Below, in pieces: positions 10,728-31,465 of a stretch of DNA of 38,915 nucleotides. This stretch comes from Actinomycetes bacterium. GTDB taxonomy: Bacteria > Actinomycetota > Actinomycetes > Streptosporangiales > Streptosporangiaceae. Within the stretch, counting starts at the first letter, position 1. Each line of letters starts with the position of its first letter. Under the pieces are notes generated by a model. That model saw only the letters and a program-made list of their open reading frames with translations, did no database searches and was not told the DNA's origin. Position numbers and translations under genes: made by a program. The DNA is taken from the NCBI GenBank assembly GCA_021792405.1, contig JAJYUU010000030.1, positions 1-38,915 on the forward strand, in the 5' to 3' direction.

Positions 10728-10783
10728 CTCCGTCCTCCTTCCGCCCGGCGGCCGGCGGCCGCACAGGTCCTACGCCATGATGA

Positions 10784-11014
10784 CACCGCAACACCCGGCG
10801 GAAGGATGACGACGGAAGCATCGAGATCGGGCTTCCCGATGCCGGTTTCGGCGGCGCGCAGCCCACCCTTATCCTCAGTCGCAGCAGCGAACCGCGGACC
10901 GGGAAGCTCCGGCTGCACATCGACGTCAACGCCACCGACCGCGACCAGGACGCCGAGCTGCCCCGCTGCGACGAGGATGAGCATGAAGACACCCTGGGTG
11001 TTCGTCGACTGTGA
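10784..11014 (+). pseudogene. Remnant of a VOC (glyoxalase-like) domain gene
   Basis: In the frame starting 10784, just after two in-frame stops (10778-10783), the translation reads DDDGSIEIGLPDAGFGGAQP, then TLILSRSSEPRTGKLRLHID, then VNATDRDQDAELPRC. This matches the middle of actinobacterial VOC proteins, which typically contain KTGKNRLHLDV followed by a DRDQ(D/E)AE helix. There is no start codon with an RBS, the first half of the domain is missing, and after the Cys the frame turns acidic and stops at 11012. The 3' end overlaps the start of the exonuclease gene (10983) in another frame, so that gene appears to have been joined to a broken VOC gene. Confidence 0.55.
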
Positions 11015-11543
11015 GGCACGCGGCATCAGTCCGGTGCACGGTGTGCTGACTGAGTTCGGGGCCGTGCATTACGACACGCGTGACACGTTCCACGGGCGCC
11101 TGTTCCAGGCGACGCCGGACCCGGAGAACCCGGCGATCAGCATCGTCGGCGAGCGCGTCGCGGCCGACAAGGACGTCGCTGAGAGTTTCGCGGCCTGGCT
11201 GCACGAGCACCTCGGCAGCAGTCGGCCTGTCTTTGTGAGCGACAACCCGGCTTATGACTGGCAGTGGATCGCGGGAATGTTCGACCGGGCTGGCATGGAC
11301 AACCCGTTCGGGCACTCAGGCCGCCGTATCAGCGACTTCTGGGCTGGCCTGAACCGGAACTGGAGCGACACGCAGGGCTGGAAGCGGTTCAGGAGAACAG
11401 CCCACGACCACAATCCTGTCAACGACGCGATGGGGAACGTGGAGGCGTTCGAGGAGATCATGCGCCTGGCGCAACCGGGACGCTCATCCAGCGTTGGCGA
11501 GAGTGATCGGCCGACAGTGATCGACGAGGAGCATCCGGCATGA
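10983..11543 (+). CDS. DEDDh-type 3'-5' exonuclease
   Basis: This is a 186-residue DnaQ-fold protein. The start ATG at 10983 has GAGG six bases upstream; an ATG at 10977 is also in frame. The DEDDh motifs are in order: ExoI with Asp9 and Glu11 in VFVDCEARGISPVHG, ExoII with Asp91 in SDNPAYDWQWI, and ExoIII with His142 and Asp147 in DHNPVNDAMGN, the HNPxxDA form of the family. The family removes 3' nucleotides from DNA or RNA; the particular substrate is unknown. The stop overlaps the start of the P1-type peptidase (ATGA, 11540-11543), so the two genes are coupled, an odd pairing with no obvious shared pathway. Confidence 0.8.
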   Translation: MKTPWVFVDCEARGISPVHGVLTEFGAVHYDTRDTFHGRLFQATPDPENPAISIVGERVAADKDVAESFAAWLHEHLGSSRPVFVSDNPAYDWQWIAGMFDRAGMDNPFGHSGRRISDFWAGLNRNWSDTQGWKRFRRTAHDHNPVNDAMGNVEAFEEIMRLAQPGRSSSVGESDRPTVIDEEHPA

Positions 11544-12664
11544 ACGGCGCACTCCCTGCCAGTCCGGTTCGCGCGCGTGACCTGGGGATCCCGTTCGACG
11601 GCAGGCCGGGCCAGTGGAACGCGATTACCGACGTGCCGGGCGTGGAGGTCGGCTACCAGACGCTGATCCGCGGCGATGCGGTGCGTACCGGCGTGACGGC
11701 AATCCACCCGCGTGGCGCGGCCGGGGCCGGCGATCCGGTCACGGCCGGCTTCTTCGCCCAGAACGGCAACGGCGAGATGACGGGCCTGTCCTGGATCGAG
11801 GAATCCGGCACGTTCAGCGGGCCAGTCGGGATCACCAATACTCACGCGGTCGGCGTCGTGCATGCCGGGATCGTGGCGTGGACCGTGCGTCATCATCCGC
11901 ACCTTGCGCAGGTATGGCTGCTCCCGGTTGTTGCCGAGACCTGGGACGGCTACCTCAACGACATCAACGGCCAGCACGTCACGCAGGAGACGGCGATCGC
12001 CGCCCTGGAGGCAGCGGCGACCGGGCCGGTGGCCGAGGGCTCGGTCGGTGGCGGTACCGGGATGAGCTGCTACCACTTCAAGGGCGGCTCGGGAACCTCA
12101 TCGCGGCTGGTCAGCCACGCGGGCACGGACTACGCCCTCGGCGTGTTCGTGCAGGCGAACTTCGGCAGCCGAGCCGAGCTGACGCTGGCCGGCCTGCCGG
12201 TCGGCCGGCTGGTGACTGCGGACGACCCGATGGCCACCTTCAGCCTCGCGCCCGAGGGCTCGGGCTCGGTGATCGCGGTCGTCGGCACGAACGCCCCCTT
12301 GCTTCCCGGCCAGTGCAAGGCGCTCGCCCGCCGGGTGACGCTCGGGCTGGCCCGGACGGGAACGACGGGCTCGCACTTCTCCGGGGACCTGTTCCTGGCC
12401 TTCTCCACCGGCAATCCCGGTGCGATCACGGCGGGAGCCGGCCGGCGCGCTGGTGGCGGGACGGCCGACTACGACATGCTCAGGTTCGTTCCGTGGGGCG
12501 CGCTCGACCCGTTTTACGCTGCGGTCGTGCAGGCTACCGAGGAGGCGGTCGCGAATGCTCTGGTGGCCGGTGAAGACATGACCGGCAGGGACGGCCATCG
12601 CAGTCCGGGGCTGCCGCGGGACCAGGTCGCGTCGCTGTTCCGCGAGCGCGGTTACGGACTGTAA
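11540..12664 (+). CDS. P1-family peptidase (DmpA-type aminopeptidase/D-esterase)
   Basis: This is a 374-residue N-terminal-nucleophile-like hydrolase. The start overlaps the exonuclease stop by four bases, with GAGGAG eight bases upstream. Features of the DmpA/BapA family are the N-terminal WNAITDVPGVEVGY, TGVTAIHP, GFFAQNGNGEMTG, VGITNTHAVG, and GSVGGGTGM at about 168-175. The autocleavage site is expected between Gly242 and Ser243 in APEGSGSVIAVVGTNAPL, freeing Ser243 as nucleophile. The family cleaves N-terminal D- or beta-amino acids from small peptides. Beta-aminopeptidase activity would fit a neighbourhood with a class III aminotransferase, but this is inference. Confidence 0.88.
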   Translation: MNGALPASPVRARDLGIPFDGRPGQWNAITDVPGVEVGYQTLIRGDAVRTGVTAIHPRGAAGAGDPVTAGFFAQNGNGEMTGLSWIEESGTFSGPVGITNTHAVGVVHAGIVAWTVRHHPHLAQVWLLPVVAETWDGYLNDINGQHVTQETAIAALEAAATGPVAEGSVGGGTGMSCYHFKGGSGTSSRLVSHAGTDYALGVFVQANFGSRAELTLAGLPVGRLVTADDPMATFSLAPEGSGSVIAVVGTNAPLLPGQCKALARRVTLGLARTGTTGSHFSGDLFLAFSTGNPGAITAGAGRRAGGGTADYDMLRFVPWGALDPFYAAVVQATEEAVANALVAGEDMTGRDGHRSPGLPRDQVASLFRERGYGL

Positions 12665-12721
12665 GGCGCGGCGGGCAGTGGCCGGCGTTCTGTCAGGGCT
12701 GTCACCGGCCGGGCGCTGCTA

Positions 12722-12736
12722 GGCTGCTGAGCAGCC
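12722..12736 (+). terminator. Possible terminator after the P1 peptidase
   Basis: A 6-bp perfect stem (12722-12727 with 12731-12736) has a 3-nt TGA loop, 58 bp past the peptidase stop. There is no T-run. Confidence 0.3.
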
Positions 12737-12782
12737 AGCCGATGAGCTGGCAGTGAGCCCCCGGACGAGGAAGCTGAGCGCC

Positions 12783-14132
12783 ATGACCGACTATGCCGTC
12801 GACCCGCAGCGCGGGGCCGAGGTCTACGCGACGGACCGGGCGCACGTGTTTCACTCCTGGTCCGCGCAGAAGGCGCTGACGCCGATAGCCGTGGCCGGCG
12901 CCGAAGGCTGCTACTTCTGGGACTACGACGGCAACCGGTACCTGGACTTCTCCAGCCAGCTCGTCAACACCAACATCGGTCACCAGCACCCGAGGGTGAC
13001 GGCGGCGATCGCGGCGCAGGCGGCCAAGCTCTCGACCATCGCGCCCCAGCATGCGAACGAGGCGCGCGGCGAGGCCGCCAGGCGGCTCGCCGAGCTGGCG
13101 CCAGCGGGCTTTCAGAAGGTGTTCTTCACTAACGGCGGCGCGGACGCGAACGAGAACGCGATCCGGATGGCCCGGCTGCACACCGGGCGCAGCAAGGTGC
13201 TCAGCTTCTACCGCTCCTACCACGGGAACACCGGAGCGGCGATCAACTCGACCGGTGACCCGCGCCGCTGGCCGAACGAGTTCGCCGTCGGCCACGTGCA
13301 CTTCTTCGGGCCGTATCTGTACCGGTCGGCGTTCTGGGCGACCACGCCGGAGCAGGAGTGCGAGCGGGCTCTGGCTCACCTGGAGCAGGTCATCCAGATG
13401 GAAGGCCCGGAAACGATCGCCGCTGTCCTGCTGGAATCGATTGTCGGCACGGCGGGCGTGCTGATCCCGCCGCCGGGCTACCTGGCCGGCGTGCGCAGGC
13501 TGTGCGACCGGTACGGCATCGTGTACATCGCTGACGAGGTGATGTGCGGCTTCGGGCGGGCCGGCCGCTGGTTCGCGTTCGAGGACCACGACGTGGTGCC
13601 GGACCTCATCGTCTTCGCCAAGGGGTCCAACTCCGGCTATGTCCCGGCAGGCGGCGTGATCATCTCCGACCCGATCGCGGCCACCTTCGACGAGCGGGTC
13701 TTCCCCGGCGGGCTTACCTATTCGGGGCACCCGCTGGCGTGCGCGTCGATTGTCGCGACGATCGACGCGATGAAAGACGAGGACATCATAGGGAACGCGC
13801 GCACGATCGGCTCGCAGGTGCTCGGGCCGGGCCTGCGTGAGCTGGCAGACCGGCATCCGGTGATCGGCGAGGTACGAGGGACCGCGGTATTCTGGGCCCT
13901 CGATCTGGTGTCCGATCGCGAGAGCAGGGCGATGCTCGCCCCCTACGGCGGTAGCTCGGCGGCGATGACGGCCCTGGTCGCGGAGTGCCGGGCTCGCGGC
14001 CTGGTCCCGTTCACCAACTACAACCGGCTGCACGTGGTACCGCCGTGCACGATCTCAGCGGAGCAGGCCAAGGAAGGGCTCGCGATCCTCGACGAGGCGC
14101 TCGCCGTCGCGGACCGCTACTACCAGGGCTAG
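12783..14132 (+). CDS. Class III PLP-dependent aminotransferase
   Basis: This is a 449-residue fold-type I enzyme. The ATG at 12783 has GAGGAAG nine bases upstream; a GTG at 12753 is less likely. The family landmarks are RAHVFHSWSAQ near the N-terminus, LDFSSQLVNTNIGHQHP, the PLP-phosphate loop FFTNGGADANENAIRMAR, SYHGNTGAAI, Asp251 of DEVMCGFGRAG, and the Schiff-base Lys280 in FAKGSNSGYVPAGG. It belongs to the omega-aminotransferase group, which moves amino groups from amines, beta-amino acids or taurine-like compounds to a keto acid. Together with the DmpA-type peptidase upstream and MmsA, it could make semialdehydes from beta-amino acids or diamines. That chain is inference. Confidence 0.88.
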   Translation: MTDYAVDPQRGAEVYATDRAHVFHSWSAQKALTPIAVAGAEGCYFWDYDGNRYLDFSSQLVNTNIGHQHPRVTAAIAAQAAKLSTIAPQHANEARGEAARRLAELAPAGFQKVFFTNGGADANENAIRMARLHTGRSKVLSFYRSYHGNTGAAINSTGDPRRWPNEFAVGHVHFFGPYLYRSAFWATTPEQECERALAHLEQVIQMEGPETIAAVLLESIVGTAGVLIPPPGYLAGVRRLCDRYGIVYIADEVMCGFGRAGRWFAFEDHDVVPDLIVFAKGSNSGYVPAGGVIISDPIAATFDERVFPGGLTYSGHPLACASIVATIDAMKDEDIIGNARTIGSQVLGPGLRELADRHPVIGEVRGTAVFWALDLVSDRESRAMLAPYGGSSAAMTALVAECRARGLVPFTNYNRLHVVPPCTISAEQAKEGLAILDEALAVADRYYQG

Positions 14133-16625: not shown

Positions 16626-17510
16626 TTACCGGGACGTCGCTCTCACGCCAGGGCGGCGAGCCTGATCAGAGTCAGGCGTTCTCGCCTTGCCGTGCGGGCC
16701 AATGCCCGCAAGCAAGGCAGCTCCGAGCACGGCTCCGGTGAACCCCAGACCGCGCAGGATGCCGGGCAGGCCGCCCGGCATCTGCTCGTGGAAGGCGGCC
16801 AAGCCGGCCACGATCGGCAGCAGGTTGGTCAGCAGGCTGGATACCCCGGCCGTGGCCAGGGCGCTGCCGCGCTGGAATGCCAGCTGCAGCGCCACGAAGG
16901 CCAGGCCGTGACAGAGCGGGATCAGAACAGCGAACAGGTACACCGGGTTGATGCCGCTGACCGCCGCTTTGGTGGCGATGTCGCCCGCGGCGTAGAGCAG
17001 GCCGGAGGCGACAGCGAGTCCGGCCCCTGGCCGCAGCGCGACCGCGACGGGACTGGCGGCAAGGCCGGCTGCCAGCAGCGAGGCCAGCACCCAGATCAGC
17101 GGCAAGCCCCAGCCCTTCGCTGCGGTGTGAGCCGTGCCAGCCGGCAGCGAGAGACCGACCAGGAGCAGCCCGCTGACTGCTGCCGCGACGGCCGCCCACT
17201 CGCGCGCTGCCAGGCGGACCCCGCCGGCCCGGACGAGCAGCGCGAGCAGCCCCATCCCACCCGCCGCAGTGGCCTGCACCAGCGACAGCGGTGCCAGCCC
17301 GAGCGCCGCGATGTAGAGCGCCCAGCCGGCCAGGCCGGTCACGAAGCCAGTGACCCAGCGCAGGTTGGAGAACAAGGCGGACAGGGAGGCGAACGGGCGT
17401 CGCACGGTGAGCTCAGGCAGCCGTTGGCTGGCGGCATGCTGCAGGAAGAACCCGCCGTTCAGCGCCGCGGTCGACAGCAGGGCCAGCAAGAGCCCGGCGG
17501 CGAGCATCAT
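16626..17510 (-). CDS. EamA/DMT-superfamily transporter
   Basis: This is a 294-residue protein with about ten predicted helices, the usual drug/metabolite transporter size. It has an internal duplication visible as two halves with similar LAPLSLVQATAAGGMG and GVSSLLTNLLPIVAG segments, the loop before the last helix of each EamA half. The start overlaps the stop of the MprF-like gene by four bases (ATGA, 17507-17510), so it is the last gene of a three-gene operon. The C-terminal tail is basic. In this context it may move a lipid, amino acid or lipid precursor, but DMT transporters have very diverse cargo and nothing in the sequence identifies it. Confidence 0.8.
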   Translation of the reverse strand: MMLAAGLLLALLSTAALNGGFFLQHAASQRLPELTVRRPFASLSALFSNLRWVTGFVTGLAGWALYIAALGLAPLSLVQATAAGGMGLLALLVRAGGVRLAAREWAAVAAAVSGLLLVGLSLPAGTAHTAAKGWGLPLIWVLASLLAAGLAASPVAVALRPGAGLAVASGLLYAAGDIATKAAVSGINPVYLFAVLIPLCHGLAFVALQLAFQRGSALATAGVSSLLTNLLPIVAGLAAFHEQMPGGLPGILRGLGFTGAVLGAALLAGIGPHGKARTPDSDQARRPGVRATSR

Positions 17511-19741
17511 CGCCTGCCCGATTTCCCGGATCCGGCCTGGTGCGCCCCGGCCGGCTCCGCGGCGCCATCGGGTGGCGGCGCTCCCGGCTTGTCGGCGTCC
17601 GGCAGCCAGTTCGCGCCGCGGACCAGGTCGGCGTGCGGCAGGTAGCCTTCGGCGGCCATCGCGGCGAACGCGATGCGCGGCAAGTCGGTCCGGTGCTCTA
17701 CCACCACGTATCTGGACTGCCAGTGCGGACTGAACTGCCGGTCGAACCGCACCAGGTTGTCGAGCTGGAGCGCGAGCGCGTGCTTCAGACTGAGCAGCGC
17801 ACCCCGCTTCAGGCGCTGCGCCGAGGAGCTGGGCGTGCCAGCCGACAGCAGGTCGGCGAATGGCGCGAAGTTCAGCGAGAGGTGCTGGAAGCCGTTACGG
17901 CGCGCCCACCATACTGCGTTCACGATCAGCCAGGCGCTGAACCCGTTCGGCGTTCCTGGCTTGCGGGGCATCGAGGACAGCGACAGCGACCGGCTCGGTC
18001 CGCACACCGCCATGTGCAGGCACCCGGCCAGCTGGCCGCTGGAGTCCCGGCCGATAAGGAAGACCGCGTCGGTGCCGCCGAGCCGGAAGAGGCTGTCAAG
18101 CTCCATCGTGAAGCCCTTCCTGACCCCGCCGCGCAGCCAGGCCTTATCCAGGGCGGCCAGGTCCGCGCGAAGGGCCGGCGGCACGTCGCCCGCCCACATC
18201 GCCTCGGTGCGGTAACCGCGCCGCTCCAGGCGGTGCACGGCCTGCCTGCTCGTGCGCATGGGCCGGCCGTCAAGCGAGAACGAGGGCACATCGATGATCG
18301 CCTCATCGCCATGGTAGATAGGGTGCAGCGCGCGGTCGCGGTAGGTCTGCAGCAGCCGGTCCGACGCGCCGAGCACCGCGACATGCCAGCCGCGGGAACG
18401 GGCGTAGGCCAGGAACTCGTCCAGGGCCTGGCCGGCCTGCTGCGGCGGCCCGACGGGATCGCCGCCTATCACCGCGACGTCGCGCACCACCCGGAACGCG
18501 ATCAGCGTCCGGTGCCTGATGAACCAGTCCTTGTCCGCCCGCATCGCGAACGGTGCGAGCGTGTCAGCGCCCCACTGCCGCACTATTTGCGCGGCACGCT
18601 CGCGGCGCCCGGCGTCGGGGAAGATGCGCTGGCGCCACGGCCGGAGCCACACGTCGGCGGCCCAGATCAGGCCGATTGCCGCGATGGACAGCACGGAAAG
18701 CGGGAACCACCGGGAGAAGCCGCGGCCGAGGTAGGCCTCGCCCGCTGGCCGCATGCCGATGAGCCCTCTCAGCGTGTCTGCGGATGCCGCGGTCAGGCTG
18801 AACGAGACACCGGCTGCCGTCCGGTAAACGAAGATCGCGATCAGCCCGTAGCCCACGGCAAGCGCCAGCAGTCCCGTCAGGCGGACTACCGCGGACGGCT
18901 GAGCGCCGGGATCCCCGCTGAACGGGAAATCCTGGCGCCTGGCGAGCAGGGCTACCGCTATCAGCGCGGTGACGATCGCCGCTGCGTAGTCCGGTCCGCG
19001 AAGCACATGCAGCACGGCTGACATCCCCAGCAAGGCAACCGAAAGCTGCCAGGCGCGCCGGTTTCCGCGCGCCAGCCCGCGGGATGCGATCAGCAGCAGC
19101 GCTCCGACCGGGACGACCAGCACATGCGCGGCGGGGTGCACCACCCCGGGTCCGAGCCGCTCGACCGTGCCGAGGGCCTGGCCAGGGCGCCGGAACAGCG
19201 CCGAGGCAAGGTTGACCAGTCCGCCGACCGCGACCATCGCGGTCAGCAGCCGTGCGGTCCCGGCCGTACGGGCGCTTCCGCCGCGGTGGCCGAGCAGGGC
19301 GCCGCCGGCGCCGGCCATGACCGCGGCGAGATAGATCGCCTGCACCCCGGCTGCCGGGCGGAGCGTTGCCGACAGCGGCTCCTGACGCACGATGAACAGG
19401 CTTACGGCGTCGACGGCGAACAGCCACCCGCCGACTCCGAGAGCCAGGCACAGCCCGGCGGACAGCCGGCTGAGCCGCAGGGCTCTGGTGACCAGGCCCA
19501 GCGTCACTCCGGCGAGCCCGAATGCCATGATGCAGACGATTAGCGGCACGCGGTCGTGTCCGGCCAGTTCGTCCAGCGGGAGCACGTCCGCCGCCCTCGG
19601 TCCTGGCCAGCTCGCGACGGGCTCGCGCACCCAGTACAGCCAGCCGGTGGTGAGTGTCGTGATCAGGATGATCGCGGCGGGCAGCAGCACCGCCCGCCTG
19701 GTGGCGGTCAGCAGTGCCTGCCTCCGGCTAGCCACGGCCAA
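17507..19741 (-). CDS. MprF-like phosphatidylglycerol aminoacyltransferase
   Basis: This is a 744-residue membrane enzyme with two parts: roughly ten hydrophobic segments in residues 1-365 (flippase-like half) and a soluble C-terminal DUF2156 domain from about 385 to 695. The latter contains VIGGDPVGPPQ, GWHVAVLGASDRLL, FTMELDSL, and NAVWWARRNGFQHLSLNFAPF, which are landmarks of the tandem-GNAT aminoacyl-lipid synthases. The family moves an amino acid (often Lys, sometimes Ala) from aminoacyl-tRNA to phosphatidylglycerol, lowering the negative charge of the membrane. There is no fused lysyl-tRNA synthetase domain, unlike mycobacterial LysX. The start is TTG at 19741 with GGAG four bases upstream; GTG at 19735 is an equally likely start. 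It overlaps the esterase gene by 14 bp and the transporter by 4 bp. Confidence 0.85.
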   Translation of the reverse strand: MAVASRRQALLTATRRAVLLPAAIILITTLTTGWLYWVREPVASWPGPRAADVLPLDELAGHDRVPLIVCIMAFGLAGVTLGLVTRALRLSRLSAGLCLALGVGGWLFAVDAVSLFIVRQEPLSATLRPAAGVQAIYLAAVMAGAGGALLGHRGGSARTAGTARLLTAMVAVGGLVNLASALFRRPGQALGTVERLGPGVVHPAAHVLVVPVGALLLIASRGLARGNRRAWQLSVALLGMSAVLHVLRGPDYAAAIVTALIAVALLARRQDFPFSGDPGAQPSAVVRLTGLLALAVGYGLIAIFVYRTAAGVSFSLTAASADTLRGLIGMRPAGEAYLGRGFSRWFPLSVLSIAAIGLIWAADVWLRPWRQRIFPDAGRRERAAQIVRQWGADTLAPFAMRADKDWFIRHRTLIAFRVVRDVAVIGGDPVGPPQQAGQALDEFLAYARSRGWHVAVLGASDRLLQTYRDRALHPIYHGDEAIIDVPSFSLDGRPMRTSRQAVHRLERRGYRTEAMWAGDVPPALRADLAALDKAWLRGGVRKGFTMELDSLFRLGGTDAVFLIGRDSSGQLAGCLHMAVCGPSRSLSLSSMPRKPGTPNGFSAWLIVNAVWWARRNGFQHLSLNFAPFADLLSAGTPSSSAQRLKRGALLSLKHALALQLDNLVRFDRQFSPHWQSRYVVVEHRTDLPRIAFAAMAAEGYLPHADLVRGANWLPDADKPGAPPPDGAAEPAGAHQAGSGKSGRR

Positions 19742-20792
19742 GGTGCTCCGATGCGGTGATCAGCGCCCGCGGCGCGAGCGTCCGCCACATCCCCCAGTCG
19801 TGCGCTCCGGGCCAGCGAAAGTAATGGTGCGCAAGCCCGAGCGTGGTCAACTCGGCATTGAACGCGAGGTTCTGCGGCGTCAGCGGATCGCGGGTGCCGC
19901 TGTAGAACCAGATGTAGGTGCGGTCTGAGCGAAGCTGCCCGGCTGCCGACCGGACGGTGTTGGCAGGGCTGTTGTCGCGCATGAGCTGGCGGTCGCGGCC
20001 GTAGACGGCGGCGATCGGGTCGGCGTGCATGTAGCCGGACCAGCTCTCCAGCAGCCGGAACTCGCCAGGGTGGTGCAGCCCGATGTTCAGCGCGCCGAAG
20101 CCGCCCTCGGACAGGCCGGCGAGGCCGCGCCAGGAGCCGCTGGCGACCGTGCGGTACCGCGCGTCGATGGTGTTGACCAGGTCCCTTGCCACGAATGTCG
20201 CCCAGTCGTTGCCGGGCTGGATCGCGTCCGCCCACTCGTGGTCAGCAAAGAACGAGCGGCCGCCGGCGGGCACTACCAGGATGAGCGGCTTGATCCGGCC
20301 TGCCGCGACGAGTTCGGCCTCAGCCACCCCTATCTGGCCGACAGTCAGGAAGTTAGACGGGTCGCCGGGGCTTCCGGTCAGCAGGTACAGCACCGGATAG
20401 CGCCGGCCAGGGTGGGCCGCGTACCCCGGCGGCAGGACGACGTCGACCGGGTCCCGATAGCCGCCAAGAGCTCGGCTGGCGATCGTGATCTGATGTACCG
20501 ATGCCGGGATCACGGCGACCCGGCGAGCTACCCCGTGCTGCCGCACGACCACGCTGCGGGGCAGGATCGGCTGGGCGAATCCGCGGTACAGCCAGTATGT
20601 GGACACGTAGCGAACTACGCCCAGAATTCCGGCAGTCATTAGCCCGAGGCACACCAGGGCGACTGCGGCGCCGGCGAGCCAACGGATTCGCGCAGATCTG
20701 GCGGCCAGCCAGGCGGCCCGGCGATGCCCTGGCCGCGGCGTGCGCTGTTCGTCCGATTTAGTCTGCTGTGTGCTGGTTCCCGGACACACCAT
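19728..20792 (-). CDS. Membrane-anchored esterase (EsteraseD/Ag85-like alpha/beta hydrolase)
   Basis: This is a 354-residue protein with one N-terminal hydrophobic helix (about residues 37-62), which puts the hydrolase domain outside the membrane. The alpha/beta-hydrolase triad is visible: Ser228 in GLAGLSEGGFGALN, Asp302 in GTRDPLTP, and His331 in GAHDWGMWR. The DVVLPPGYAAHPGRRYPVLY segment is typical of the esterase D/antigen 85 family. It is the first gene of an operon with the MprF-like synthase and a DMT transporter. In several bacteria an alpha/beta hydrolase next to an aminoacyl-phosphatidylglycerol synthase removes the amino acid again. That role is a reasonable inference here, though simple esterase activity is the safe call. 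Confidence 0.82.
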   Translation of the reverse strand: MVCPGTSTQQTKSDEQRTPRPGHRRAAWLAARSARIRWLAGAAVALVCLGLMTAGILGVVRYVSTYWLYRGFAQPILPRSVVVRQHGVARRVAVIPASVHQITIASRALGGYRDPVDVVLPPGYAAHPGRRYPVLYLLTGSPGDPSNFLTVGQIGVAEAELVAAGRIKPLILVVPAGGRSFFADHEWADAIQPGNDWATFVARDLVNTIDARYRTVASGSWRGLAGLSEGGFGALNIGLHHPGEFRLLESWSGYMHADPIAAVYGRDRQLMRDNSPANTVRSAAGQLRSDRTYIWFYSGTRDPLTPQNLAFNAELTTLGLAHHYFRWPGAHDWGMWRTLAPRALITASEHLGRG

Positions 20793-24070: not shown

Positions 24071-25351
24071 TCACGGCGAACAGGAGACGGCATGGCCTGC
24101 CATGACCCTGACGTCGCCGGTGCCGCCGTCGAGCGCGGCAAGCCATTCGCTGGCCGGGGGATACCCGGCAGTGACGGCCGCGACCGGGCAGCCGACCACC
24201 ATCGGCACGCCGAGGCTGCGGGCGACCGTGGCGAGATGCGAGCTGGCCGGGCCAGCCGCCGAGATGACGCCCCGCGCCGCGAACAGCAGCGGCGCGTAGG
24301 CCGCCAGCGGGCGGTCGATCAGCAGCACCGCATCGCGGCAATCCGGCGTGGCCGGCTCGTGCGGACGGCAGGCGACAAGCCGTCCCGCCGTGGCTCCCGG
24401 CGCGGCGGCGATCGCCGGCACCGGCCGGCCGCTGGCCCGTATCGCCTCGGCGAGCGCCAGCACGGACGCATGCGGGGCTGGCCGGGGATGCGCGCCCGGC
24501 GGTCCGGCCGCCACGGCGTCCGGCGAGTCGTCCGGTGCGGCGGGGGAGCGCGGCCGCTCCCGCAGCGACTGCAGCAGCCATATCTCGCCCTGCCAGAGTG
24601 CCCACTCGATCAGGTCATCGCCGAGTACCCGGCAGACGCCCATGGCCAGCTCGGCAACCGCGCGCGCGTGCTCAGCGCCGATCAGCGATACCAGCCCGTT
24701 CCCGCCGGTAAGGGCGATAGCACCACCGCGGAAGCGGGCCGTGGCGCCGTCCGCCGCGCCGGCCAGCAGCGCGCCGGGATGGCCGGCCAGGCCTTCGACC
24801 GTGACCTCGATGTCCCCGTCCGGCTGCGTCGTGACCCTGGCAGTCCCGCCGGCCACCGGGCTGATCTCCGGCTGCAGCAGGACGGCGAGCTCGGCCGCCT
24901 CGAGCGGCAGCCCGCACGAGTCAAGCCGCCGCAGCGGATCGGGCGCCAGCACGGACGCCAGGCAGCTGCGCACGGCTGCGGCGACATCGGCCGGGCCGAC
25001 CTCCGCCACCGAAGAGAAGGCCCCGGACCAGCGCGGGTCTGCCTCAAGCGGACTGGACGAGCGGACGATCACCCGCCCGCGAAGGCGTGTCACCGCCGTT
25101 TCGAGCTCGCCGGCCAGGGCCGGCTCGAGCGGGTAGCCCAGCACCGCCCTGCGCCCCGCTGCGACGCCGTCCGCCCGGATCGCCGCCACGCCCGCGCCGA
25201 TCGCCGGCCGGCCGGCGGCCACCGGAAGCACCCAGCCGGGCAGGACCCTGAACCCGGCCAGGAGCGCCGACGACAGCCGGGCGGCCTTGGCGCCGGCGAT
25301 GACCGGCGGCGGGCCAGAGGTCAGCGGAACCAGCCACCGGAAGCCGCTCAC
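24071..25351 (-). CDS. Minimal PEP-synthase/pyruvate-phosphate-dikinase-like protein
   Basis: This is a 426-residue protein of the dikinase family. The N-terminal ATP-grasp domain spans about 1-285. It has the nucleotide-binding Lys in VIAGAKAARLSSALLAGF, the Arg in RVIVRSSSPLEADPRWSGAF, and the closing strand DLIEWALWQGEIWLLQSLRE. The C-terminal swivelling phosphohistidine domain spans about 330-426 and has its catalytic His in GVISAAGPASSHLATVARSL. There is no room for the large acceptor-binding domain of PEP synthase, PPDK or rifampin phosphotransferase. The GTG start at 25351 lies 16 bp after the M24 gene, so it is the last gene of the operon. The acceptor is unknown; it could phosphorylate a pathway intermediate or partner with another protein. 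Confidence 0.75.
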   Translation of the reverse strand: MSGFRWLVPLTSGPPPVIAGAKAARLSSALLAGFRVLPGWVLPVAAGRPAIGAGVAAIRADGVAAGRRAVLGYPLEPALAGELETAVTRLRGRVIVRSSSPLEADPRWSGAFSSVAEVGPADVAAAVRSCLASVLAPDPLRRLDSCGLPLEAAELAVLLQPEISPVAGGTARVTTQPDGDIEVTVEGLAGHPGALLAGAADGATARFRGGAIALTGGNGLVSLIGAEHARAVAELAMGVCRVLGDDLIEWALWQGEIWLLQSLRERPRSPAAPDDSPDAVAAGPPGAHPRPAPHASVLALAEAIRASGRPVPAIAAAPGATAGRLVACRPHEPATPDCRDAVLLIDRPLAAYAPLLFAARGVISAAGPASSHLATVARSLGVPMVVGCPVAAVTAGYPPASEWLAALDGGTGDVRVMAGHAVSCSP

Positions 25352-25367
25352 CCGGCAGCAACCGGTC

Positions 25368-26606
25368 TCATCCGGTCACGATGATCTGATCGGAGGCATA
25401 GGAGGATAGCAGCTCATGGCCATCGTCGGTGACCAGGAGCATCTCCTCGAGGCGGACGCCGAACTCGTGCACCTTGCCGTGCTGGGTCTCCAGCGCGAAG
25501 ACCATGCCCGGCCGGATCTCCTCGGGGTAGTCCAGCGACCAGATCCGGGAGATGACCGGGCGGTCGTACTGGGCCAGGCCGAGCCCGTGCCCCCACAAGT
25601 TGGCAGCGGCCTGGTCCTCTTCCTCATACCCCCAGGCTTCCATCGCCGACGGCCACTTGCTCGCGATGTCCGCCGTGGTGACACCGGGGCGCACCACCTC
25701 GATCGCGTCCCACAGCCACTTGTGCGCGGTCTGGTAATAGCGCTTCATCTCGTCCGTCGGCTGGCCACCCGCGCAGTACGTTCGGTAGACGCATGACTTG
25801 AAGCCATTCCAGGTGAGCGCGGCCAGGTCGATGATCACGAGCTCGCCCGGCCGGATGATGCGATCGGAGAAGTTGCGCCAGTTCGGCCACGCATTCGGGC
25901 CGGAGGACACGATGATGTCCTCCACGTCCTCCATGCCGGGAATGTTGTAGAGATACTCGAACCCGAACGCGGCCACCTCGTTCTCGGTCAGGCCGGGTCG
26001 CAGGAACTGGGTGAACTCGTAGTGCAGCGAGTCACAGATCGCGCCGACGATCCTGGCCGCCTTCTGCTCGTCCGGGCTCTTGATGGCGCGCGCCTCCATC
26101 ATCGGGGACATCCCGTCGGTCCAGCTCACCCCGGCCCGCTCGAATGCGCGCAGCATGTTGATATCGATGAAATCGACGCCGAGCGGCTTGTCCCGGACGC
26201 CGGCATCCTCCAGGTCGCCGATGAGCGCCGTGACGAACTTGGTCACCTGGGCTTGCGAGGCGGGCCCGGCCGCTCCCTTGATCCAGGCGTAGGAGTGCCG
26301 CACGTTCTGCGGCGGAATCCACGGGTTATGAACCTTGAGGTGGATGCCGATGTCGCCCTGCTCGTAGACGATCGGCTCCTTGCCCTCGCAGAGCACTACG
26401 TATCGCAGTCCCGGCTTCAGCCGGTTCCAGCCCGGCGTGTAGGTCGATGACACATAGCGCATGTTCTCGTCGTACATCAGGAGCAGGGCGCCCAGGCCGT
26501 GCCGGGCCATGGCCTCCCGTGCCCGGCGCAGCCGCCATTCGCGGACGGCCTGCCAGTTGATGCCTTCCTTCCAGTCCGTGCTCAAGCCACCGAAGGCTTC
26601 TCTCAT
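25368..26606 (-). CDS. M24 peptidase-fold protein lacking one metal-binding Asp
   Basis: This is a 412-residue creatinase/aminopeptidase-P ('pita-bread') fold protein. The ATG at 26606 has AAGGA five bases upstream. The N-terminal domain has AMARHGLGALLLMYDENMRYVS. In the catalytic domain Asp260 (VIIDLAALTWNG), His340 (LWGHGLGLAQYDRP), Glu373 (FALETQHG) and Glu387 (GVRLEEMLLVT) align with metal ligands. The second Asp of the usual D-x(10-11)-D pair is replaced by Cys272 in GFKSCVYRTYCAG, and the HE after GHGxG is Y-D. I have seen similar GYRTCYYRT forms in related M24 proteins, so this may be a subfamily trait. It might be a C-N lyase or amidinohydrolase-like enzyme rather than a peptidase. 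Confidence 0.82.
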   Translation of the reverse strand: MREAFGGLSTDWKEGINWQAVREWRLRRAREAMARHGLGALLLMYDENMRYVSSTYTPGWNRLKPGLRYVVLCEGKEPIVYEQGDIGIHLKVHNPWIPPQNVRHSYAWIKGAAGPASQAQVTKFVTALIGDLEDAGVRDKPLGVDFIDINMLRAFERAGVSWTDGMSPMMEARAIKSPDEQKAARIVGAICDSLHYEFTQFLRPGLTENEVAAFGFEYLYNIPGMEDVEDIIVSSGPNAWPNWRNFSDRIIRPGELVIIDLAALTWNGFKSCVYRTYCAGGQPTDEMKRYYQTAHKWLWDAIEVVRPGVTTADIASKWPSAMEAWGYEEEDQAAANLWGHGLGLAQYDRPVISRIWSLDYPEEIRPGMVFALETQHGKVHEFGVRLEEMLLVTDDGHELLSSYASDQIIVTG

Positions 26607-26663
26607 CGACTTCCTTCCAGGGGTAGCGGCTGAGCCGGCCAGGCGGAGCCGGATCCGTGCGTG

Positions 26664-28439
26664 TCAGCCGGGCGGGATGACGGGCACCAGGAGGTAGGGT
26701 CTGCGGTCGGGAGCGGCCCAGAGGGTCTGCGTGCTGCCCGCGAGCGCGGGCGGCCGGTCCACCGGGTCATCGTGCAGGAAGGGCCCGCACCCGGTCATCT
26801 CGTTGACGAACGAGCCAAGCCGGGGGGCACCAGGATGCCGCCTGGCGTAGTCGCGGCCGCGGACCGTGAGCGCCAGCCGGTAGTCCGCGGGAACGACGAT
26901 GCTGGTCGGCCAGATTTCCACATCGGCACGGTATATCTCGCCGGGAACCAGTGGCTGGATCTCGGTATGCGCATGGTAGGGGCGGTACTGCGTGCTCAGG
27001 GTCTCGTCGAGCGTGCGGTGCGACATGCGCAGCCAGCCCTGCGCTACCGGCGTATGGGGGTCGATGGCGCCGGGAAAGGTGACCTCGCCGCCGTCCGGCC
27101 GCAGCAGCCGCAGGACCAGGAACAGGTCCGCATCGTCGGCGGATGAGGAGACGAACAGCCGCGCGGCGACCGGCCCGGTGATCTCGGCCTCGTCGTCAAA
27201 CGGCGGCGTGCGGAAGGTCAGGCCCTCGCCGCCGGCCTGATAGGAGGCTGACTGAAGGCCCCGGTCGCCGGGCTCGGCCCAGGCCAGTTCCAGCGCGTCC
27301 GGCTTCAGCCACAGCTTCCGCCAGCGAGTCCTGGCCAGCGGCCACTCCTGCTCCGGTCGCTGGACGAAGCCATCGAGCGTGCGCACCTGCAGTTGCACCG
27401 GCGGCTGCTGCCGCCAGCGGCTGTCGTCGCCGTGCAGGAAGCAGGCGAAGAAGCGCTTCTGCAGGTCCACGCCATAGTCGGTGTAGAAGTGCGTCCAGTG
27501 CTCCAGGCCGTGCACCTCCAGCCACTTGCGCGGCGAGGCAGCGCGGCAGAACCCCTCGAAGTTGCCGCGGGTATGCAGGCCCTGGCCGCCCCAGTTGGCG
27601 GCGGACAGGAACGGCACGGTGATCTGGCCGAAGTCGGCGGAGCGGATCCGGTGGAATTCGTCATCGAGCGGGTGCTCGCGGATCTGCTCGCCGAACGGCA
27701 CGCGGCTGGCCGCCAGTTCGGCCTCGCTCAGCGTCTGCGGCCCGGCGACGGGCTCGCCGGTGCTGCGGCTGGTCGGCCCGCGCTCACCGACTCCATGCTG
27801 GACGGGCAGGACCTGCTTGCGGTACCAGTTTTCCCAGAACGTGCAGAGGATGCCGCCGTGGTGCGTGCCATCCCGGTAGAAGTCGGACGCGCCTTCCCAG
27901 ATGCACATCGCGGCGAGATGCGGCGGCTGGAGCGAGGCGACGTGCCAGGCGTTCATCGCGTAATAGGAGATCCCGTTCAGGCCGACTTTGCCGGTGCTCC
28001 ATGGCTGCGCCGCCGCCCACTCGATGCACTCGTAGAGGTCGCGAGTTTCCCGTGCCGAGTAGGGATCGAGCAGGCCCGGTGACCGTCCGGCGCCGCGGGA
28101 GTCCACCCGCACGCAGGCGTAGCCGTCCGGGACCCACTTCTCCGGGTCGGCAACCTCCCAGTTCTGGTAGTCGCCGCTCGATCCGCGCGTCACGTCGGGG
28201 TGCGCGCCGACCATCAGCTCCCACTGGTCGGGATAGCCGTCCTGGAAGGCCAGGCCCTTGGCATAAGGCCCGTAGCTGAGCAGCACGGGCCACTGGCCCG
28301 GCCCCGACGGCCGGAACACGTCGGCTCTCAGCACGGCGCCGTCGTCCATGGTCACCGGAACGTCCCACTCGGCCAGCATCACCCCGCCGGGCAGCCGGAC
28401 CTGCGCGACGCTGCCGGGCCGGGCCGGGTCCGCTGTCAT
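26664..28439 (-). CDS. CocE/NonD-family hydrolase (X-Pro dipeptidyl-peptidase S15-like)
   Basis: This is a 591-residue serine hydrolase. The ATG at 28439 has GGGAG seven bases upstream. The N-terminal strand TMDDGAVLRADVFRPSG, the PVLLSYGPYAKG strand, and GYACVRVDSRGAGRSPG are standard for the CocE family. Ser158 in KVGLNGISYYAMNAW is the nucleophile. LEVHGLEHWTHFYTDYGVD carries the likely His. The C-terminal jelly-roll domain (about 350-590) includes LFVSSSADDADLFLVLRLLR and the GEIYRADVEIWPTSIVVPAD segment. The family hydrolyses esters and amides, including cocaine, beta-lactam side-chain esters and X-Pro peptides. In this operon it would cleave an ester or amide in the unknown substrate. 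Confidence 0.87.
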   Translation of the reverse strand: MTADPARPGSVAQVRLPGGVMLAEWDVPVTMDDGAVLRADVFRPSGPGQWPVLLSYGPYAKGLAFQDGYPDQWELMVGAHPDVTRGSSGDYQNWEVADPEKWVPDGYACVRVDSRGAGRSPGLLDPYSARETRDLYECIEWAAAQPWSTGKVGLNGISYYAMNAWHVASLQPPHLAAMCIWEGASDFYRDGTHHGGILCTFWENWYRKQVLPVQHGVGERGPTSRSTGEPVAGPQTLSEAELAASRVPFGEQIREHPLDDEFHRIRSADFGQITVPFLSAANWGGQGLHTRGNFEGFCRAASPRKWLEVHGLEHWTHFYTDYGVDLQKRFFACFLHGDDSRWRQQPPVQLQVRTLDGFVQRPEQEWPLARTRWRKLWLKPDALELAWAEPGDRGLQSASYQAGGEGLTFRTPPFDDEAEITGPVAARLFVSSSADDADLFLVLRLLRPDGGEVTFPGAIDPHTPVAQGWLRMSHRTLDETLSTQYRPYHAHTEIQPLVPGEIYRADVEIWPTSIVVPADYRLALTVRGRDYARRHPGAPRLGSFVNEMTGCGPFLHDDPVDRPPALAGSTQTLWAAPDRRPYLLVPVIPPG

Positions 28440-28456
28440 CTGCCCTCTCCCTTGCG

Positions 28457-29455
28457 TCAGGCCGGAAGGCCAAGGCCGAACAGCCGGCTGGCGTTGCGCC
28501 CGGCGATGCCAGCCAGGTCCGCTTCGCCAAGGCCGGCGCCAGCCGCCTGCTCCCGAACCGGTCCCGCGGCCATGTCGAACGGGAAGTCGGTGCCGAAGAG
28601 CACGCGGTCCGCCCCGGCCATGCTGACCAGGAACGCGAGCGGGGCAGGCGCGTGGGTGACCGAGTCGTACCAGAACCTGCGCAGGTACTGTGAGGGCGGC
28701 CGCAGGCAGCCACGCGACTCGGGCCGAACCTGGTAGCCGTGGTCCAGCCGGCCGATCTGGTACGGGAGATAGCCGCCGCCGTGCATCAGGACCAGGCGCA
28801 GGCCGGGCAGTTCGTCCAGCAGCCCGCTGAAGATCAGGCGAGCCGCGCCCACGGTGGTCGCCAGCGGGTTGCCGACCAGGTTCGTCAGGTAGAAATCCGC
28901 CAGGCCCGGTCGCTGTCCCACGTAATAGGGATGGAGGATCAGCGGGACCCCGAGTCCGGCCGCCGCGGCGAGCACCGGGCGCACCGCGGGATCGTCCAGC
29001 GGGGTGTCCCCGACGTCCGGGCCGATCTCCGCCCCGCGCATGCCAAGGCTGGTCACCGCGCGAGTCAGCTCCGCGACCGCGGCAGCGGGCGCCTGCATCG
29101 GCAGCGTCGCGAGCGCGATCAGCCGGCCGCCCGAGCCGGCCGCCATCGCGGCGAGGAAGTCATTGGCTGCCCGGCAGAACTCGACGGCCTCCGCGCCAGG
29201 TGCCCAGTACATGAACAGCGTCGGGGCAATCGAGATCAGCGCATGGCTGATGCCGCGCTCGTCCATCGATTGCAGCCGCGCGGCCACGTCGAAATAGGCG
29301 GCCGGAACCGGGTAACGGAATCCCTGCCTGTGCACGAGCCAGTCCTGCCCGCCCTGGTGGTCTATCGTCAGCCCATCGAAGCCGGCCCCGCGCCGGGCGT
29401 CGGCGATCACTTGCGCAGGCACGACGTGCGTGTGCACGTCAACGGTCAGCCTCAT
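28457..29455 (-). CDS. Amidohydrolase-2 family protein (ACMSD-like decarboxylase/hydrolase)
   Basis: The start ATG at 29455 overlaps the stop of the dehydrogenase gene by four bases (29452-29455); longer frames upstream are rejected. The 332-residue protein begins with the metal-binding VDVHTHVVP (His8 and His10). Later it has ISIAPTLFMYWAP, a metal-ligand His in LILHPYYVGQ, LVLMHGGGYLPYQIGRLDHG and the catalytic Asp in VLFGTDFPFD. This pattern belongs to the ACMSD group, whose members decarboxylate or hydrolyse aromatic-ring-cleavage acids. The EAVEFCRAANDFLA segment supports that group. The substrate is unknown, and so is whether it decarboxylates or hydrolyses. It is 17 bp upstream of the CocE-like gene. 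Confidence 0.85.
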   Translation of the reverse strand: MRLTVDVHTHVVPAQVIADARRGAGFDGLTIDHQGGQDWLVHRQGFRYPVPAAYFDVAARLQSMDERGISHALISIAPTLFMYWAPGAEAVEFCRAANDFLAAMAAGSGGRLIALATLPMQAPAAAVAELTRAVTSLGMRGAEIGPDVGDTPLDDPAVRPVLAAAAGLGVPLILHPYYVGQRPGLADFYLTNLVGNPLATTVGAARLIFSGLLDELPGLRLVLMHGGGYLPYQIGRLDHGYQVRPESRGCLRPPSQYLRRFWYDSVTHAPAPLAFLVSMAGADRVLFGTDFPFDMAAGPVREQAAGAGLGEADLAGIAGRNASRLFGLGLPA

Positions 29456-30342
29456 CCGGCCGCCAGGCCAGCCTGCTGACGGATGATCGCGTGAACGCAG
29501 GCCGTGTCCTCGTCCCCGCGGCCCTGCGCGAGAGCGGCCTGGTAGAACGCTGTCGCGAGGGTGAACAGCGGCACCGGGGAGCCGGCCTGGCGCGCGAATG
29601 CGGTAATCAGGTCGATGTCCTTGGCGAACAGGCCGGTGCGCATGCCCGGTCCGGCATAGCACCGCGCGGCCATCGCCGGGCCCCGTACCTGGAGCATCCT
29701 GGAACTGCCCGCGCCATCACCGACCGCGGTCAGCACGGTCTGCGGATCCAGGCCGGCGGCCTCGGCCAGCACCAGGGCCTCCGCCGCCGCGACGTTGTGG
29801 ATCGTCACCAGGAGGTTGGCGATCATCTTGACCTTAGTGCCGTTGCCGAACTCGCCGACGTCATGCTGGCTGCGGGTGATCGCGCGCAGCATCCCGGCCG
29901 CCTTGTCCTTGCCAGGCTGCGCGCCGCTGAGATAGGCCACCAGGTCCCTGCTGCGTGCCTGCGCGCCGGTACCGCTCAGCGTGCAGTCCAGCAAGTAAGC
30001 GCCGTGATCCGCGAGCGCCAGGCGGGCCTCCTCCTTGACCTCCAGCGGCAGCGTGCTGGTCTCGACGACGGTCAGGCCGGGCGTGGCGGCGGCGGCGAGA
30101 CCGGCCGGGCCCAGCGTGACGTCCAGCAATGCCTGGCCGCTCGGCAGCGACGTCACCACGATGTCGGCCATCGCGGCCAGCTCGGCCGGACTGCTGACGC
30201 AGGCGCCGCCGCTGGCGCGGTGCGCGTCCAGGCGGGCCGGGTCGATGTCGTACCCGGCCACTGTCCAGCCGGCGGCCAGCAGGTGGCCGCTCATGGCCGA
30301 GCCCATCACGCCGAGCCCGGCGAAGCCCGCCACCCCGGTCAC
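29452..30342 (-). CDS. NAD(P)-dependent beta-hydroxyacid dehydrogenase (HIBADH family)
   Basis: This is a 296-residue enzyme and the first gene of the operon. The Rossmann motif GFAGLGVMGSAM is at residues 6-17. The substrate loop is near DCTLSGTGAQA, where many family members have a D-A-P-V-S-G sequence, so this loop is atypical. The catalytic Lys172 and Asn176 are in GNGTKVKMIANLL. The C-terminal helical domain has KDIDLITAFARQAGSPVP. The family oxidises 3-hydroxyisobutyrate, tartronate semialdehyde and related beta-hydroxyacids, or works as an imine reductase. The start is GTG at 30342, with another GTG four codons later; neither has a clear RBS. It is divergent from the alcohol dehydrogenase at 30440. 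Confidence 0.85.
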   Translation of the reverse strand: MTGVAGFAGLGVMGSAMSGHLLAAGWTVAGYDIDPARLDAHRASGGACVSSPAELAAMADIVVTSLPSGQALLDVTLGPAGLAAAATPGLTVVETSTLPLEVKEEARLALADHGAYLLDCTLSGTGAQARSRDLVAYLSGAQPGKDKAAGMLRAITRSQHDVGEFGNGTKVKMIANLLVTIHNVAAAEALVLAEAAGLDPQTVLTAVGDGAGSSRMLQVRGPAMAARCYAGPGMRTGLFAKDIDLITAFARQAGSPVPLFTLATAFYQAALAQGRGDEDTACVHAIIRQQAGLAAG

Positions 30343-30396
30343 TCGCCGGCCGCTTCCGCCACTCTCGCCTCCGCACGCGCGATCAGATCACCTGAA

Positions 30397-30417
30397 CACT
30401 TCATAGCACCGGAAGTG
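30397..30417. promoter_or_regulatory. Inverted repeat in the divergent promoter region of the catabolic locus
   Basis: CACTTC-N9-GAAGTG lies in the 97 bp between the divergent starts at 30342 and 30440. The half-sites are centred 15 bp apart. It is a candidate operator able to control both the five-gene operon and the alcohol dehydrogenase. No regulator gene is next to it. Confidence 0.45.
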
Positions 30418-30439
30418 CCCACAGTGAAACAATTGCCCG

Positions 30440-31465
30440 ATGCGGGCAGCAGTGATCGAGGGTCCCGGCCGCGTGGCGGTCCGGGATGTCCCGGCAGCGC
30501 GGGCAGCCGACGGCCGGGCCCTGGTGCGGGTGAGCCAGGCCGGTATCTGCGGCACGGATCTCAAGATCGCCGCAGGCGACGTTCCGGTTGTCGCGCCGGT
30601 GGTTCTCGGCCACGAGATGACGGGCCGGGTCGAGATCCCCGGCCGGGGCGGCGCGCTCGGGCCCGGCACCGCCGTGCTGCTCAACCCGTCGCCCTTCTGC
30701 GGCCGCTGTGACCGCTGCCGCCGCGACCTGCCGCACCTGTGCCGGCACGGCCGCCTGCTCGGCCGTGACGCCGACGGCTGCTTCGCCGAGTACATCGCCG
30801 CCGACGAGGCGCTGCTGCATCCGATTCCGGATTCGGTCACGCGCGATGAGGGTGCGCTGCTCCAGGTGCTTTCGACCTGCATTCACGCGCAGTCCGCGAT
30901 CCGGGCGTGGCCGGAAGACGTCGCGGTGGTGATCGGTCTCGGCGTAGCCGGCCTGCTGCACCTGCAGCTACTGCGGGAGCGGGGCGTGCGCAGCATCATC
31001 GCCGTCACCAGGTCGGCCGCCAAGCACGAGCTAGCCCGGCGGTTCGGCGCCAGCGCAGTGGTCGGGCCCGATGAGGCGGACGAGGCGGTCGCGGACGCGA
31101 CGGCTGGCCGGAGCGCGGACATCGTCGTCGAATGCGCTGGGTCGGCGGCCACGCTCGCACAGGCGTTCCGCCTGGCCGGCGCTGGCGCGCAGGTGATGCT
31201 GTTCGGGATCATCACCGGCATCGCCGATACCCGCCCGTACGAGTGGTACTACAAGGAACTGACGATCAAGAGCCCGCGGGCGGCGCGGCCGCGTGACTAC
31301 GACAGCGCCATCGCGCTGTGCGCCCAGCGGAGGCTGGACCTCGCGCCGCTCGTCACCGGCCGGTTCCCGCTCAGCCGGCTGGCGGAGGCGCTTGTCGCCT
31401 GCGCTGACCCCGGCCAGCTGAAGGTCGTTCTCGACATCGACGCCGGCACCGCCTCGGCTGGCTGA
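30440..31465 (+). CDS. Zinc-dependent alcohol dehydrogenase (MDR family)
   Basis: This is a 341-residue medium-chain dehydrogenase. The catalytic zinc ligands are Cys37 (GICGTD), His58 and Glu59 (LGHEM). The structural-zinc lobe has Cys87, Cys90, Cys93 and Cys101. The NAD site is VVIGLGVAGLLHLQLLRERG. The loop after the NAD site, ITGIADTRPYEWYYKELTI, is typical of the sorbitol/threonine-dehydrogenase-like branch. It oxidises a secondary alcohol or polyol to a ketone. It is divergent from the five-gene operon across a short intergenic region with an inverted repeat, which suggests it takes part in the same pathway. Confidence 0.88.
   Translation: MRAAVIEGPGRVAVRDVPAARAADGRALVRVSQAGICGTDLKIAAGDVPVVAPVVLGHEMTGRVEIPGRGGALGPGTAVLLNPSPFCGRCDRCRRDLPHLCRHGRLLGRDADGCFAEYIAADEALLHPIPDSVTRDEGALLQVLSTCIHAQSAIRAWPEDVAVVIGLGVAGLLHLQLLRERGVRSIIAVTRSAAKHELARRFGASAVVGPDEADEAVADATAGRSADIVVECAGSAATLAQAFRLAGAGAQVMLFGIITGIADTRPYEWYYKELTIKSPRAARPRDYDSAIALCAQRRLDLAPLVTGRFPLSRLAEALVACADPGQLKVVLDIDAGTASAG

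Follow-up and report, generated by a model that had tools for sequence, protein, structure and literature searches.

The window considered here, the whole stretch of DNA that was analysed, comprises 38,915 nucleotides of an Actinomycetes bacterium of the family Streptosporangiaceae (GenBank assembly GCA_021792405.1, contig JAJYUU010000030.1). It contains an operon of five minus-strand open reading frames (ORFs) at 24071–30342, within which a short dikinase and a protein of the M24 pita-bread fold are of particular concern. The dikinase (DIK; 24071–25351) matches Pfam PPDK_N with 33.1 bits and PEP-utilizers with 37.7 bits. Next to it lies the M24 protein of the DddP/creatinase fold (M24; 25368–26606), with Peptidase_M24 at 128.6 bits and Creatinase_N. 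The other three ORFs encode a CocE/NonD-type alpha/beta hydrolase (CocE; 26664–28439; TIGR00976 230.3 bits, cut-off 66.3; Peptidase_S15 and PepX_C), an ACMSD-like amidohydrolase of the Amidohydro_2 type (28457–29455; PF04909 148.2 bits), whose start at 29455 is a chosen position inside a longer ORF, and a HIBADH-family beta-hydroxyacid dehydrogenase (HIBADH; 29452–30342; NAD_binding_2 and NAD_binding_11). The intergenic gaps are -4, 17, 57 and 16 bases. A zinc-type alcohol dehydrogenase (ADH; 30440–31465; ADH_N and ADH_zinc_N) is divergent from the operon on the plus strand; it starts 97 bases off the HIBADH start, and the region bound of 30439 thus takes in the intergenic stretch. An earlier note on this DNA had described the block, its gaps, the divergent dehydrogenase and the protein families in these terms; the ORFs and gaps were the same when measured again, and all six proteins scored above the Pfam gathering scores of the families first named.

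Assignment below the level of the family is less firm. The CocE hydrolase alone among the six passed an NCBIfam cut-off; HIBADH, M24, DIK and ADH fell below the cut-off of every NCBIfam model listed, and the ACMSD-like protein had no NCBIfam match. For HIBADH, the best NCBIfam model was 2-hydroxy-3-oxopropionate reductase (155.9 bits against a cut-off of 340.75), and the HIBADH equivalog gave 131.3 bits against 291.6. The ACMSD-like protein has an Amidohydro_2 domain and ACMSD as its closest solved relative (top PDB match, 187 bits). Promoter and terminator scans returned 0 and 1 sites, not above shuffled sequence, and an Rfam scan of the window gave no family at threshold.

DIK is a protein of 426 aa for which the AlphaFold2 model (pLDDT 88.2) predicts an ATP-grasp domain (~1–268), a low-confidence linker (269–292) and a swivel phosphohistidine domain (~293–423). 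The model consists of these two ordered domains and the linker, and a third, acceptor-binding domain is not present. Structural comparison aligned DIK with rifampin phosphotransferase (VIA-align Z 31.6, 372 residues) and with PPDK (Z 24.5, 351 residues), in both cases across ATP-grasp and swivel, and its ATP-grasp domain with HpeI (9goj; Z 19.1). Residues K22, R97, E249, Q261 and H372, which we take to be the counterparts of the catalytic residues of PPDK, are the same in all 21 aligned DIK sequences. DIK thus has the ATP-grasp and the phosphohistidine swivel, with conserved residues, of the PEP synthase/PPDK/RPH dikinases. On NF004531, presumably the mycobacterial VadK family, it scored 26.6 bits against a cut-off of 456. 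A dikinase-dehydrogenase fusion of 802 aa at one locus (L096) was set aside, as its mid-frame looks shifted, which most likely makes the fusion artefactual.

The M24 model (pLDDT 81.9) has the pita-bread fold, with Z 31.4 and an rmsd of 3.2 over 363 residues to creatinase (7yto and 1kp0). Fold scores to DddP (4s00; 32.6), Xaa-Pro dipeptidase (32.6), DoeA (6twj; 32.4) and creatinase (7yto; 31.4) are close to each other; over all fold relatives Z ranged from 30.8 to 32.6 at 16–26% identity. The metal ligands of DddP, listed for RdDddP, are D295, D297, D307, H371, E406 and E421 (PMC4108388). In an alignment to RlDddP two of these six are lost in M24, D297 being replaced by A262 and D307 by C272, while D295, H371 and E406 are retained and the position of E421 corresponds to E387/E388. 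The earlier note described M24 as lacking a metal ligand; the alignment shows that two are missing, not one. A262 and C272 are found in 79 of 80 alignment rows, the remaining row having a gap. The proposed base of DddP, D377, aligns to Q346, beside a gap and with an Asp two residues on. Creatinase and DoeA work without metal.

More distant M24 relatives have also lost these ligands. Among plasmid-borne relatives (~35–37% identity), both losses are common to 5 of 5 aligned sequences; two further rows of that alignment, L012 and L013, are taken from the wrong strand and were not used. Most of these proteins are annotated as Xaa-Pro peptidase or M24 metallopeptidase, and the lost metal ligands make the Xaa-Pro peptidase annotation doubtful. 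Aldehyde and ketoacid dehydrogenase genes neighbour three of them (L118, L119, L121), an oxidoreductase and a thiamine pyrophosphate (TPP)-binding protein a fourth (L120), and neither kind is found at L117. Relatives of ~35% identity on Paenarthrobacter plasmids (L137, L138) occur with RidA, enoyl-CoA hydratase and NAD(P)-dependent oxidoreductase genes, joined at L137 by a cupin and a flavin reductase. In the window's own genome a HIBADH-family gene and an aldehyde dehydrogenase gene flank a second M24 protein (37% identity; L122, G000:C283:2455-6114); no dikinase is labelled in this separate catabolic cluster.

Scanning of the M24 protein against genome contigs of 84,980 species yielded 79 loci with 63–99% identity. 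They derive from the 80 top-ranking of 84 candidates, picked out with peptide patterns taken from the M24 protein of the window, and so favour close relatives. Record titles of the loci include Actinobacteria, Chloroflexi and Proteobacteria among others. Searched with a DIK profile, 70 of the 79 loci had DIK directly downstream of M24, and five of the nine exceptions (L042, L084, L087, L092, L116) have less than 1 kb of sequence left. Families at 36% identity or more were counted at 71 loci for DIK, 31 for ADH, 20 for HIBADH, 19 for the ACMSD-like enzyme and 14 for CocE; many of the contigs are short and these counts are lower bounds. Among the gene families counted, DIK is thus the only near-constant partner of M24. 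The pairing was also seen among 396 genomes of the phylum, where M24 (E <= 1e-150) was found in 7, DIK (at least 261 bits) in the same 7 and the two genes adjacent in 7/7, in a test that scored four candidates per genome, with a profile built from M24-linked copies and with some genomes that may coincide with the 79 loci. Co-occurrence in the same seven would have a probability of 3.5e-15 by chance if the two were independent. The next match to the DIK profile in these genomes gave 192.4 bits, and lesser matches cover mainly the ATP-grasp part. No description of this constant pairing was found in the literature search.

The remaining genes of the operon follow M24 more loosely. The exact block with its divergent ADH recurs, among the 79 loci, only in L093, a near relative (89–99% identity). 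All six families are present at 2 loci, five at 1, two to four at 72, and M24 alone at 4. Away from the near relative the gene order is shuffled and extra enzymes join, such as an HMGL-like relative of homocitrate/isopropylmalate synthases and a D-2-hydroxyacid dehydrogenase. In L075, a metagenome-assembled genome (MAG) of a more distant actinomycete (M24 75% identical), M24, CocE, HIBADH, the ACMSD-like enzyme, ADH and DIK lie in another order within 8 kb, in a stretch that also holds a D-2-hydroxyacid dehydrogenase. One contig of the L086 genome has the HMGL-like enzyme, M24, CocE and HIBADH in a single stretch and, ~30 kb further, the ACMSD-like enzyme, ADH, D-2-hydroxyacid dehydrogenase, DIK and a second CocE. 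L038 holds ADH, HIBADH, M24 and DIK. The five genes thus do not make up an operon of constant composition. What stays constant is the M24-DIK pair, and the operon is best explained as one form of a widespread, apparently catabolic set around that two-gene core.

Linkage was counted in 25 genomes, consisting of the window's own and 24 chosen from the 79 loci, mostly for long flanks; without the window's genome and that of L093, 23 remained. The M24 ortholog is single-copy in all 25 (at least 812.7 bits against at most 344.1 for the next match). The top genome-wide match lay within 20 kb of M24 in 10/16 genomes for CocE, 11/14 for ADH, 6/14 for HIBADH and 13/20 for the ACMSD-like enzyme, where ~0.2 would be expected for each, that is ~38 to 65 times above uniform placement, which the expectation assumes. 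For ADH, four rows with a top match below 150 bits (G200, G202, G204, G211) had been dropped, and for HIBADH five rows below 160 bits (G203, G204, G208, G213, G222); counted as unlinked they bring the values to 11/18 and 6/19. CocE of this type was missing in 7 of the 23 genomes at E <= 1e-40. The HMGL-like enzyme was present in 10 of the 25 genomes, in 9 of them within 20 kb of M24, and the D-2-hydroxyacid dehydrogenase (at least 56% identity) in 14, in 12 of them within 20 kb; the window's genome has no close ortholog of either. Because these two enzymes are linked to M24 in other genomes, the five genes seem to belong to a more extensive pathway of modular make-up. The HMGL-like gene is held by 27 of the 79 loci; in many Acidimicrobiia loci (L052, L058, L072, L074 and others) it is ~410 aa long and stands just upstream of M24.

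Several loci adjoin ABC (LIV-type) or TctA importers and GntR-type regulators. Other neighbours, many of which were scanned through one representative per cluster, include Cyclase (PF04199), isochorismatase-like, Amidohydro_1 and PEP_hydrolase proteins, molybdenum cofactor (MoCo)-binding dehydrogenases and others. An attempt to read the substrate from the neighbour genes was given up, as no known pathway could be recognized in them. Among 200 genomes of the order, the window's own included, an M24 ortholog of more than 70% identity was found in only 3 others, all outside the window's family, which indicates a patchy distribution. These results change the picture of the operon as an undescribed catabolic pathway: a recurrent and apparently undescribed set stands, a fixed set of five genes does not. 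The refuting case, in which the genes are not kept together beyond the source organism, does not apply in view of their place near M24 in other genomes, in L075 within 8 kb. No described pathway with this gene set was found in a literature search that covered open papers, with most subscription papers and all bioRxiv preprints outside it. None of the folds is new; what is apparently undescribed is the M24-DIK pairing and the set of genes.

The reading preferred here, with a probability of roughly 40%, is that M24 and DIK form one two-component ATP-dependent enzyme of a catabolic pathway, with a small molecule as its substrate. In dikinases a swivelling His takes over the beta-phosphoryl group of ATP and delivers it to an acceptor that another domain or protein holds (PMC12167813, PMC4844700). 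Since DIK has no acceptor domain, it must pass its phosphate to something held by another protein, and M24, as its only near-constant partner, is the most likely holder of that acceptor. The phosphotransfer, the joint M24-DIK enzyme, each reaction and the order of the steps are what we infer in the following scheme. CocE would free a substrate from an ester or amide, and M24 would bind this small polar substrate. The beta-phosphoryl group of ATP would pass to His372 of DIK, as in the dikinase family, and DIK would phosphorylate the substrate while it is on M24. A C-N or similar bond might then be cleaved by M24, and the products would be processed by both dehydrogenases and the ACMSD-like enzyme. 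The earlier suggestion that a complex ester or amide is broken down is compatible with the CocE and M24 folds. The more specific proposal, that an M24 protein with a broken metal site serves as the substrate half of a split dikinase in which ATP energy carried by phosphohistidine drives activation and cleavage of a stable small molecule in a creatinase-like pocket, is somewhat less likely.

A number of observations weigh against a joint enzyme. DIK lies 5 kb downstream of M24 in L075 and elsewhere on the M24 contig in L086, and with the DIK profile it was not seen on the contigs of L050 and L082; in L050 a Dabb-domain gene follows M24 in its place. In L039 (Phytohabitans suffuscus; 11217-12420) the DIK frame breaks after ~195 codons and resumes in another frame, so that this copy may be broken or its sequence misread. 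Scoring of four candidates per genome means that an unpaired ortholog could be missed among the 396 genomes. Distance-tree correlation was 0.78 for M24-DIK against 0.87 for M24 and the HMGL-like enzyme and 0.78 for M24-HIBADH, and was discarded as a pointer to the partner of M24 because DIK is not singled out. No dikinase is named in seven fetched regions of M24 relatives at ~35–38% identity, the gene tables of which are incomplete, and the M24 fold seems to act alone in these distant relatives. HpeHI, CreHI and PpsAB are divided differently, with a free-standing ATP-grasp protein and a swivel joined to the substrate domain (PMC12167813).

The four-candidate limit and the L039 frame shift have lowered the probability given to the joint enzyme and raised that of the alternative that survives best, in which M24 and DIK are separate, consecutive enzymes of the pathway. 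M24 would then hydrolyse or lyse a small molecule, perhaps metal-free, and DIK would act on a later intermediate on an unlinked protein. The ligand-lacking relatives without a labelled DIK nearby point in this direction, as do the tied fold scores of DddP, DoeA, a dipeptidase and creatinase and the two cases, L075 and the L086 genome, in which M24 and DIK are apart yet near other genes of the set. Two separate steps would leave DIK as the only near-constant neighbour of M24 (71/79 loci, with ADH next at 31/79) and as a dikinase without any acceptor domain, and we regard this alternative as rather unlikely.

It is less probable still that DIK is a VadK-like regulatory histidine kinase, which would autophosphorylate and bind to M24 or some other enzyme so as to tune the flux of the pathway, without phosphorylating any metabolite. 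The VadK report describes the same two-domain layout, autophosphorylation at His422 and a pull-down with methylcitrate cycle enzymes (PMC13400623). Against such a role, DIK reaches 26.6 of the 456 bits of NF004531, and occasional loss would be expected of a regulator that can be dispensed with, yet DIK is kept in all seven sampled genomes with M24. Only a small chance is given to the neighbours being an ordinary mosaic of catabolic genes without a common pathway, in which only M24 and DIK belong together. The presence of all six families in only 2 of 79 loci, of two to four in 72, and the restriction of the exact block to L093 would agree with a mosaic. The ~38- to 65-fold excess of top genome-wide matches near M24 argues otherwise, and so does a contig (C11 of G206) on which the ACMSD-like enzyme, ADH, CocE and HIBADH stand together in ~13 kb without M24. 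That M24 is a DddP-family dimethylsulfoniopropionate (DMSP) lyase or an ectoine hydrolase, and the operon a known osmolyte catabolism, is highly improbable, for DddP is the top match in sequence and fold but M24 scored 118.9 of 600 bits on the DddP model (NF043017) and 42.3 of 613 on the ectoine hydrolase DoeA model (TIGR02993), lost two of six metal ligands and has Q346 at the position of the base D377.

If M24 and DIK do form one enzyme, the pair would be a new layout among small-molecule dikinases and would explain what is done by a protein that cultured Phytohabitans and alphaproteobacterial MAGs share at no less than 63% identity. It would also imply a small molecule in wide use, for whose degradation no described pathway came up in the literature search. 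The split-dikinase proposal, if true, would make M24 an ATP-dependent enzyme of its fold and show another manner in which small-molecule dikinases can be split over two proteins; the pair would also form the core of a catabolism that occurs in several bacterial phyla.

Other gene groups were observed in the window and its genome. A second CocE (53% identity) is found elsewhere in the genome (L123, G000:C184:52000-70000) with a TPP enzyme, a creatininase-family protein, an MDR-type dehydrogenase, a DHDPS-family protein and LIV-like ABC importer genes. Within the window, genes for an Amidohydro_1 protein, a family S58 peptidase and a class III aminotransferase are grouped at 9489-14132 and may be another amide-degrading cluster. 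Overlapping genes for an LPG_synthase_C (phosphatidylglycerol lysyltransferase-like) protein and an esterase-family protein are found at 17507-20792; the two come directly after the operon in L093, and in the window a chloride-channel gene lies in between.

Compared with known systems, the CocE/NonD, ACMSD-like and HIBADH proteins of the operon are members of their groups by fold, and CocE also by its family cut-off. M24 has the pita-bread fold in common with DddP, DoeA/EutD and creatinase, and differs from them in its 16–26% identity, in the loss of two DddP ligands and in a gene that is tied to a dikinase. DIK resembles rifampin phosphotransferase, PEP synthase and PPDK in its ATP-grasp and swivel folds and in its invariant Lys, Arg, Glu, Gln and His, and differs in having no third, acceptor-binding domain. 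VadK (Rv1127c) has the same combination of ATP-grasp and swivel without an acceptor domain; DIK is far under the NF004531 cut-off, and the accessible part of the VadK report names no M24 partner (PMC13400623). HpeHI, CreHI and PpsAB are described as two-component dikinases that open catabolic pathways (PMC12167813), and the operon is like them in a two-part dikinase proposed for a catabolic pathway, there at its start, and in a DIK ATP-grasp domain that resembles HpeI. The operon departs from the HpeHI layout in that DIK carries both ATP-grasp and swivel and is proposed to work with a protein of the unrelated M24 fold.

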